From an uncultured archaeon A07HR67 (GTDB lineage: Archaea; Halobacteriota; Halobacteria; Halobacteriales; Haloferacaceae), in assembly GCA_000496175.1 (NCBI GenBank), contig KI543168.1, positions 61,993 through 98,552 on the forward strand: a stretch of 36,560 bases of DNA, written 5' to 3'. Numbering within the stretch: the stretch's first letter is position 1; every line of letters starts with the position of its first letter. The notes beneath the pieces were generated by a model. That model saw nothing but the letters and a program-made list of their open reading frames with translations. It made no database searches and was not told the origin of the DNA. A program made the position numbers and the translations under genes. Of this stretch, positions 20,887-23,837 are shown one piece after another.

Positions 20887-21696
20887 ATGGACGTGTACGG
20901 ACTGATCGGGAATCCGGTCGGCCACTCGTTGTCGCCGCCGATGCACGAGGCGGGCTACGCGGCTCTCGACATCGACGCGCGCTACGTCACCTTCGAGCCC
21001 GCTCCCGACGACGCCGCGCTGGCGGTCGAAGGGGCGGCTGCGCTTGGTGTGGCCGGACTCAACGTCACCATTCCGTTCAAACAAGACGTGCTCGAGGCGG
21101 TCGCTGCCGACCCGCTCGCCGAGCGGATTGGCGCGGTGAACACGGTCGTCTTTCCGGGCGGCGACGGCCGGCCGCGGGGGTACAACACGGACGCCGCGGG
21201 AGTGACGCGCGCCTTCGAGCACCACGACGTGACGCTCGCGGGGGCCGACGCGGTCGTCGTCGGCGCCGGCGGCGCGGGGCGGGCCGCGGCGGTCGCGCTG
21301 GCGGACGCGGGCGCGACCGTTCACGTGGCCAACCGCACGGCCGATCGGGCGGTGACACTCGCCGCCGACGTCCCCGAGGCGACCGGCGGTGGGCTCGCGA
21401 CGCTCGACGAGCGGGTGCCCGCGGCCGACGTTCTCGTCAACGCGACGAGCGTCGGGATGGAAGAGGACGCGACGCCGGTTCCGGCAGAACTGCTCCACGC
21501 CGAGCTGGCGGTTCTCGACGCCGTCTACGCGCCGACGGAGACGCATCTCCTTCGGGACGCCGACGCCGCGGGCGCGACGACAATCGAGGGAGCGTGGATG
21601 TTGTTGTTTCAGGGAGTCGAGGCGTTCGAACGCTGGACCGGCGAGGACGCGCCGGTCGCGGCGATGAACGCGGCGCTGCGCGAGCGGCTTGGATGA
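20887..21696 (+). CDS. aroE: Shikimate dehydrogenase
   Basis: A 269-residue enzyme that reduces 3-dehydroshikimate to shikimate with NADPH in aromatic amino acid synthesis. Substrate-site residues are visible: the SLSP motif (14-17), Lys65 in NVTIPFK, Asn86 region in GAVNTVV and Asp102 in YNTDAAG. The nucleotide-binding loop is GAGGAGR (126-132), and NRT (149-151) fits NADP preference. The C-terminal [18 protein letters not shown] helix is typical. The ATG at 20887 begins the family's [14 protein letters not shown] start. It is convergent with the CopD-like gene. Confidence 0.95.
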
Positions 21697-22290: not shown

Positions 22291-22794
22291 ATGGCACTGC
22301 TGGAGAAGATCAAACGAAAGCTCGGGTTCGGGAGCGAGTCGTCCGACCAGGGCCCCAGAGAAACGACGGTGACCGTCGAACAGGAGGCCGGCGAGACCGC
22401 CGCCGACAGCCGCCCGGCTGGCGTGAAGACGGCCGACGCCGCGTCGACGACTCCCGACGACGAGGCGGCGTCCGGTGCCGAGGAGACGACCGTGGCCGAG
22501 GTCGACGCGGTCGACGAATCCGGGGACGCAGTCGAGTCCGGCGACGCCCCGAGCGCGGCGGCAGACGACACGGCGGCCGACGACACGGCGACCGACGCCG
22601 CGGAGCCCCGCTCGGACGGCGATCCGGTCGACCAGATCAAGGGGATCGGACCGGCGTACGGCGAACGTCTCGCGGAGATGGGGATCGAGACGGTCGACGA
22701 GCTCGCGGCCGCGGACCCCGTCGACGTGGCCGATGGAGCGAGCGTCGGCGAGAAGCGCGCGTCGCGATGGATCGACCGGGCGGAGCAGTTCTGA
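22291..22794 (+). CDS. Helix-hairpin-helix protein with long acidic linker
   Basis: A 167-residue protein in three parts. Residues 1-14 are basic (MALLEKIKRKLGFG). Residues 15-110 are a low-complexity Ala/Asp/Glu/Thr-rich region, probably disordered. Residues 111-167 form a helix-hairpin-helix domain with the KGIGPAYGERLAEMGI hairpin (117-132) and a second half VADGASVGEKRASRWIDRA. This domain is common in haloarchaeal proteins that bind DNA non-specifically, for instance in repair or topology factors. No catalytic domain is present. It has its own promoter, and the class IV aminotransferase follows 52 bp later on the same strand. Confidence 0.82.
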   Translation: MALLEKIKRKLGFGSESSDQGPRETTVTVEQEAGETAADSRPAGVKTADAASTTPDDEAASGAEETTVAEVDAVDESGDAVESGDAPSAAADDTAADDTATDAAEPRSDGDPVDQIKGIGPAYGERLAEMGIETVDELAAADPVDVADGASVGEKRASRWIDRAEQF

Positions 22795-22846
22795 GCGTCG
22801 CCGCCCCCGGGCGCCACAGAACGACAGACCGAGGGGGCGTCGGCGG

Positions 22847-23776
22847 ATGAGCGAGCCATCGGACCGAACGTACCACGTCGACGGCGAGCTCGTCTCCGCC
22901 GACGCGGCGGCCGTCCACGTCGAAGACCGCGGGTTCGCATACGGCGACGCCGCCGTCGAGACGCTGCGGGCCTACGGCGGCGAGGTCTTCCGCTGGAGCG
23001 ACCACGCCGAGCGGCTGGCGTCGACCTGTGAGGCGCTCGCGCTCGATCACGGACTCGACGACGCAGAGCTGAAACGCCGGGTCGACGAGACGCTCGCCGC
23101 CAACGACCTCTCCGATGCGGGCGTCAGGCTCTCGATCACTCGAGGTCGTCAACCGGGAGGGTTCGGCCCCGAACTGCCGCTCGACCCGCAAGCGGAAGTC
23201 GATCCGACCGTCGTCGTTGTCGTCTGGCCGGCCGCGCGCGGGGGCGTCGGCTCGGCGCCGGCACATGCCGGTCCCGCAACGCTTCAGACAACGAAGACCC
23301 GGAAGGTGTCCGACCGTGCGGTTCCCGCGGACGCGAGAACGCACAACTACCTCAATCGGATTCTCGCGCGGCTGGAGCTTCGGGTGACGGGCGCAGACGA
23401 GGCGCTGATCTGCGGTCCCGACGGCCACGTCGCCGAGGGGGCGGCGGCCACCCTGTTTTTCGCCGACGGAACGGGGCTGAAGACGCCAGCGCTCGACGGG
23501 CCGGTGCTCCCGGGCGTCGTCCGCGAGGTCGTCATCGAGATCGCCGACGCCGAGGGGATCCCCGTCGAGGAGGGCACCTACACGCCGAGCGACGTGCGCG
23601 AGGCCGACGAGGTGTTTCTCACGAACACGCGGTGGGAGCTGCGGCCGGTCAGAACGGTCGACGGAATCGACGTCGGAAGCGACGGCGAGGGGGTCGCCGG
23701 GCCGGTCACGACGTTGGTGTCGCGGTTGTTCGACCGGCGGGTCGAAGAACGACACTACGACGGCGAGCGGTGTTGA
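22847..23776 (+). CDS. Class IV aminotransferase (PabC/BCAT-like) lacking the PLP lysine
   Basis: A 309-residue fold-type IV PLP enzyme, closest by pattern to aminodeoxychorismate lyase (PabC) or branched-chain aminotransferase. The start YHVDGELVSADAAAVHVEDRGFAYGDAAVETLR, THNYLNRILARLELR (165-179), GPDGHVAEGAAATLFF and VFLTNTRWELRPVRTVDG are classic. Oddity: the residue before THNYLN is Arg164 (codon AGA, 23336-23338), where the family has the Schiff-base Lys (K-T-x-NYLN). Without it, ordinary PLP transamination or lyase chemistry is not expected; a single G-to-A change would restore Lys. I left the gene symbol empty because activity is doubtful. The ATG at 22847 gives the family start. No pabA or pabB is adjacent. 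Confidence 0.85.
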   Translation: MSEPSDRTYHVDGELVSADAAAVHVEDRGFAYGDAAVETLRAYGGEVFRWSDHAERLASTCEALALDHGLDDAELKRRVDETLAANDLSDAGVRLSITRGRQPGGFGPELPLDPQAEVDPTVVVVVWPAARGGVGSAPAHAGPATLQTTKTRKVSDRAVPADARTHNYLNRILARLELRVTGADEALICGPDGHVAEGAAATLFFADGTGLKTPALDGPVLPGVVREVVIEIADAEGIPVEEGTYTPSDVREADEVFLTNTRWELRPVRTVDGIDVGSDGEGVAGPVTTLVSRLFDRRVEERHYDGERC

Positions 23777-23814: not shown

Positions 23815-23837
23815 GTGTGCGCCCGTCGGGCGCACAC
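23815..23837. other. Perfect 10-bp hairpin after the aminotransferase gene
   Basis: GTGTGCGCCC-GTC-GGGCGCACAC is a perfect inverted repeat with a 3-nt centre, 38 bp after the stop codon at 23776. No T-run follows, so termination is uncertain; it directly abuts the larger inverted repeat. Confidence 0.75.

Follow-up and report, generated by a model that had tools for sequence, protein, structure and literature searches.

The pabC-like gene and its neighbourhood

The stretch of DNA analysed here (the window) is 36,560 nt long and comes from the uncultured archaeon A07HR67, a salt-loving member of Halorubrum judging from its named relatives. Its plus strand carries at 22847..23776 an open reading frame for a PabC-like protein of 309 amino acids with the class IV aminotransferase fold, an orphan that is predicted to be a pseudoenzyme. 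The protein matches profile PF01063 over the length of the profile (positions 2–222 of 223, E = 1.3e-51, 176 bits compared to a cut-off of 28.5), which places it in this fold. It is 74–77% identical to most orthologues in the genus Halorubrum and shares with them a locus adjoining a gene for a helix-hairpin-helix (HHH) protein. Both sequence and locus thus identify it as an orthologue of haloarchaeal pabC. For the window protein, the only one scanned, the best PabC models, which are bacterial, yielded 120–140 bits, below their cut-offs of 177–308.

Nearly all Halorubrum genomes share one gene order, in which aroE is followed by a membrane-protein gene on the opposite strand, the HHH-domain gene, pabB, pabA and pabC. 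In the window, the open reading frame at 20887..21696 (plus strand) is taken to be aroE (shikimate dehydrogenase), based on recognition of its sequence and not on a family search; this conserved neighbour was included in the neighbour-gene tree described below. The HHH_5 protein of 167 amino acids (22291..22794, plus strand; PF14520, E = 7e-12, and synteny) is the conserved upstream neighbour of pabB-pabA-pabC. It is separated from pabC by a spacer of 52 nt (22795..22846, plus strand), which marks the site occupied by pabB and pabA in Halorubrum genome G009 and nearly all other members of the genus. The two genes are missing at the same place, with a similarly short spacer, in all seven genomes of a Halorubrum clade that is sister to the window (see below). 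About 40 nt past the pabC stop codon, a perfect inverted repeat, GTGTGCGCCCG-T-CGGGCGCACAC (23815-23837), was noticed by eye and is a possible terminator.

Relocation of pabB and pabA was considered, but no such copies were found elsewhere in the genome of the window or in those of the seven sister species. All matches were to paralogues that other species carry as well, namely TrpE-like (about 45% identity) and TrpG-like (about 50%) proteins and a more distant group resembling chorismate enzymes (about 30%). The genome of the window is 82% complete, and it is the seven sister-clade genomes, at 94–99% completeness, that make this absence firm. The genes that would supply a PabC with its substrate, pabA and pabB, were not found in the genome of the window.

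Changes in the catalytic site and selection

Codon 164 (23336..23338, plus strand) is AGA and encodes arginine, within the sequence VPADA-R164-THNYLNRILARLEL and an intact reading frame. In phmmer alignments, R164 is placed opposite a lysine of the archaeal transaminases 5mqz, 5cm0 and 5e25 (IKSLNYLNN) and of E. coli IlvE 1i1k (AAKAGGNYL). This lysine of the K-x-x-N-Y-L or K-A-G-G-N-Y-L motif is the one that forms the Schiff base in these enzymes. The protein is therefore a PF01063 member with arginine at the position aligned with that lysine. Comparison of 69 distinct orthologues yielded lysine in 62 (hereafter normal-type proteins) and threonine or alanine in seven; arginine was observed in the window alone. 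The seven orthologues without lysine belong to the sister-clade genomes, six with threonine and one with alanine. Where lysine is present, its codon is mostly AAG (73 sequences, compared to 3 with AAA, duplicates included). When 391 genomes of the class were scanned for the pattern R-T-H-N-Y-L-N, a single match lay inside a pabC, that of the window; four other matches lie in unrelated sequence and were dismissed as chance matches.

The initial annotation had pointed out the arginine at the site of the PLP lysine, and the comparison with the normal-type proteins and with solved structures bears this out, although the codon itself is read from the single assembly available for the species. It had also named Lys150 and Lys153 as residues that might occupy the active site. 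Both lie in a TTKTRK stretch that the orthologues possess alongside their active-site lysine, and were discarded as replacements. A second pabC, for which it had suggested a search, was not found in the genome of the window, where class IV is otherwise represented solely by an ilvE-like gene that encodes its own lysine. A structural model calculated by AlphaFold from ten sequences reached a pLDDT of 49 and was discarded.

Arginine 164 is not an isolated change. Among the normal-type proteins, 116 alignment columns are at least 95% conserved. The window protein differs in ten of these near-invariant columns (F37V, Y92G, L129A, K164R, G171R, D190G, T200A, N202T, T225V and T262R) and the sister clade in 19, compared to a median of 0 and a maximum of 3 in normal Halorubrum orthologues. 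The view that the protein is otherwise intact thus holds for the reading frame, but not for nine further near-invariant positions. Codon 225 (23519..23521, plus strand) encodes valine in the LPG-[IV]-T-R phosphate-loop motif, in which all 62 normal-type proteins have threonine. Codon 202 (23450..23452, plus strand) encodes threonine instead of an asparagine that is invariant in the normal type; the same N202T change is present in six of the seven sister-clade proteins, most of which also share with the window protein a small insertion near residue 105.

The two lineages differ in the extent of erosion. The window protein retains the tyrosine of the NYLN motif (Tyr168; codon 23348..23350, plus strand), the conserved active-site glutamate (Glu197; codon 23435..23437, plus strand) and Thr261. 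In all seven sister-clade proteins, the first two of these positions are occupied by arginine and glycine, respectively, as part of a replacement of NYLNG by ARVNE together with E197G, G223R, T259A and S261A. The whole site is gone in this clade, and the replacements at invariant residues are mostly the same in 7/7 proteins. A scan for the resulting signature THARVNE detected only the seven sister-clade genomes among the 391 genomes of the class. Both lineages therefore encode homologues of an enzyme that lack catalytic residues, namely lysine in the window and lysine, tyrosine, glutamate and others in the sister clade. The sister-clade proteins contain 34–37 arginines, compared to 21–25 in three normal proteins (raw counts, uncorrected for whole-genome composition); judging from composition, this richness might indicate an anionic ligand.

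Selection was analysed with codon models on 286 aligned codons of 14 sequences. When normal branches were set against those that follow the loss of pabB and pabA, ω was 0.048 and 0.114, respectively. With separate classes, ω was 0.047 for the background, 0.079 for the window branch and 0.117 for the crown of the sister clade. Neutrality (ω = 1) was rejected for both the window branch (2ΔlnL = 31) and the sister-clade crown (2ΔlnL = 380), and none of the eight copies (window and seven sister species) contains a frameshift or stop. The constraint is thus relaxed but still strong, indicating purifying selection in both lineages rather than dead genes. The value for the window is derived from a single long branch that is highly diverged from its relatives at synonymous sites, so that function in this protein may have been lost very recently.

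Pairwise comparison of pabC supports the relaxation, with median ω values of 0.109 among sister-clade species compared to 0.033 in normal species. In the neighbouring genes, ω ranges from 0.025 to 0.124 among sister-clade species and for most hardly changes compared to normal species (aroE, 0.056 and 0.050, respectively). Values similar to that of pabC were obtained in the sister clade for a Rieske-like gene (0.105) and for the HHH gene (22291-22794; 0.124, compared to 0.063 in normal species); the latter is uncertain due to a low-complexity acidic stretch.

Phylogeny and losses of pABA synthesis genes

In a tree based on nine neighbouring genes, which takes in six of the seven sister-clade genomes, the window is sister to the clade (SH-aLRT 98), followed by G009 (98), a genome with pabB, pabA and a PabC that contains the lysine. 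The PabC tree agrees with this topology (supports of 81, then 95). A single loss of pabB and pabA in the common ancestor of the window and the sister clade is the simplest reading of these trees. The lysine may have been lost independently in the two lineages, perhaps with differing roles of the resulting proteins.

Two other Halorubrum genomes, G012 and G025, carry separate internal pabB-pabA deletions, while pabC and its lysine are kept and each PabC shows two changes at conserved columns. Shortened pabB and pabA remnants were observed upstream of the intact pabC, at about 7530-7900 of L037 (G012) and about 1870-2550 of L088 (G025). The presence of the lysine in these two genomes suggests that loss of pabB and pabA precedes that of the catalytic site. 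Outside the genus, the haloarchaea G070, G073 and G084 lack pabB and have no pabC either. Taking these and others of the order without pabB and pabC into account, loss of pABA synthesis seems to be recurrent in haloarchaea.

Dihydropteroate synthase (PF00809) is encoded in all 52 genomes of the genus, indicating that folate synthesis still needs pABA. The alternative pABA enzyme of the Chlamydia type (TIGR04305) was absent from the 12 genomes examined. Cells of the window species and the sister clade presumably import pABA, since dihydropteroate synthase is kept. Two genomes possess an additional, more divergent set of these genes, with pabB, pabA and the one for dihydropteroate synthase close together (G036:C50:14367-21051 and G022:C3:2960591-2967140), perhaps an acquired folate cluster.

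A probable pseudoenzyme derived from PabC

The haloarchaeal pabABC genes are assigned by prediction (PMC8305020) and have been reported to form an operon in Natrialba (PMC3403918). The window protein belongs to the same fold family as haloarchaeal PabC, a predicted aminodeoxychorismate lyase (HVO_0708; operon Nmag_2792-2794), but differs from it by the missing PLP lysine, the missing partners PabA and PabB and the nine further near-invariant changes. We infer that its ancestral activity was that of an aminodeoxychorismate lyase. The branched-chain and D-amino acid transaminases 5mqz, 5cm0 and 5e25 are of the same fold family as well and can be aligned over nearly the full length (E values down to 1e-43), but possess the Schiff-base lysine that the window protein lacks. 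The window protein also resembles its PabC-like counterparts in the sister clade (L040-L045 and L062), in which loss of pabB and pabA at the same place, loss of the lysine and purifying selection all recur.

Based on these results, we consider the window gene to be a former pabC that was orphaned by the loss of pabB and pabA, whose product has an eroded site and is kept as a pseudoenzyme for a PLP-independent task (probability roughly 0.7). For the wider proposal that at least eight Halorubrum species possess a lysine-free fold-type IV protein derived from PabC and selected for a new PLP-independent function, with the window as an early-diverging and less eroded member, we see the odds as slightly better than even. 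In the proposed course of events, the ancestor of the window and the seven species would have lost the pabB and pabA genes directly upstream of pabC. With no aminodeoxychorismate made, the PLP-binding and catalytic site would have been freed from selection and would then have eroded. Lys164 would have become arginine in the window lineage while other PLP contacts were still there, and threonine or alanine in the sister clade, where tyrosine, glutamate and other residues would have been lost as well. Catalysis is probably gone in the proteins of both lineages, judging from their residues. The PabC-like protein probably acquired a non-catalytic function or had one beforehand, and as the sister clade has no catalytic site, the role retained there does not need PLP. 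Binding of a ligand or a partner protein via the fold-type IV scaffold is the most likely reason for purifying selection on the fold; we thus infer a binding or scaffolding role.

An additional, non-catalytic role of PabC predating the loss, which would explain why pabC survives each loss in Halorubrum, is a version of this explanation rather than a full rival, and we regard it as tentative. It would account for the retention of pabC after three separate losses of pabB and pabA (window and sister clade, G012, G025), but G012 and G025 look recent from their few changes at conserved columns, so that retention may be a lag, and pabC is missing from the other haloarchaea that lack pabB.

A gene that became useless with the pABA synthase and is now an early pseudogene, whose frame happens to remain open in a genome rich in GC, appears unlikely. 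Such decay would fit the removal of the known function, the many changed invariant positions and an ω about two to three times that of normal orthologues. It is difficult to reconcile with an ω near 0.1 across seven species and the clear rejection of neutrality, with eight uninterrupted copies, or with derived residues that are fixed throughout the sister clade. A recent simple inactivation, one of three options offered by the initial annotation, likewise fits poorly, as the partner genes have been lost and the seven species of the sister clade share a fully dismantled site in a protein under purifying selection. Its option of another role fits best. A little less probable than decay is an altered PLP enzyme, proposed for the window protein only, in which Arg164, the retained Tyr168, Glu197 and Thr261 and other contacts would bind PLP non-covalently and support a slow or different reaction. 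Some PLP enzymes do work with histidine or another residue in place of the lysine. However, further contacts have changed in the window protein (T225V, N202T, F37V, T262R), and the sister clade dispenses with the whole site.

The remaining option of the initial annotation, a one-base error, is the least probable of these readings. Codon 164 would then be AAA in truth, a single base away from AGA, and only the sister clade would be lysine-free. AAA does account for 25 of 65 lysine codons in ten window genes, but most orthologues use AAG at this site, from which AGA is two changes away. An error would also explain none of the nine other near-invariant changes; together with the absence of pabB and pabA, these make loss of the lysine expected in the window. 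Even if the call were wrong, the sister clade and the larger picture would be unchanged.

Metabolic pseudoenzymes are known from other families, such as PDX1.2 (PMC6829848) and one that acts in eudicot indole synthesis (PMC12727527), in which an enzyme fold without catalytic residues is likewise under selection. The open-licence literature searched yielded no report of lysine-free fold-type IV proteins or pseudoenzymes, nor of pabB and pabA loss in Halorubrum. Taken together, the findings are best read as a clade-level change from PabC to a pseudoenzyme after loss of the pABA synthase, a variant within an already known kind of evolutionary event. It offers an ordered series from a vitamin-pathway enzyme to a pseudoenzyme, in which the partners are deleted, the lysine is lost, the site is dismantled and the protein is kept. 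All stages occur in living relatives (G012 and G025, the window, the seven-species clade), and the retained role is therefore testable. Automatic pipelines that label these genes as aminotransferases or PabC would be in error, and a group of haloarchaea is predicted to depend on external pABA while still making folate.
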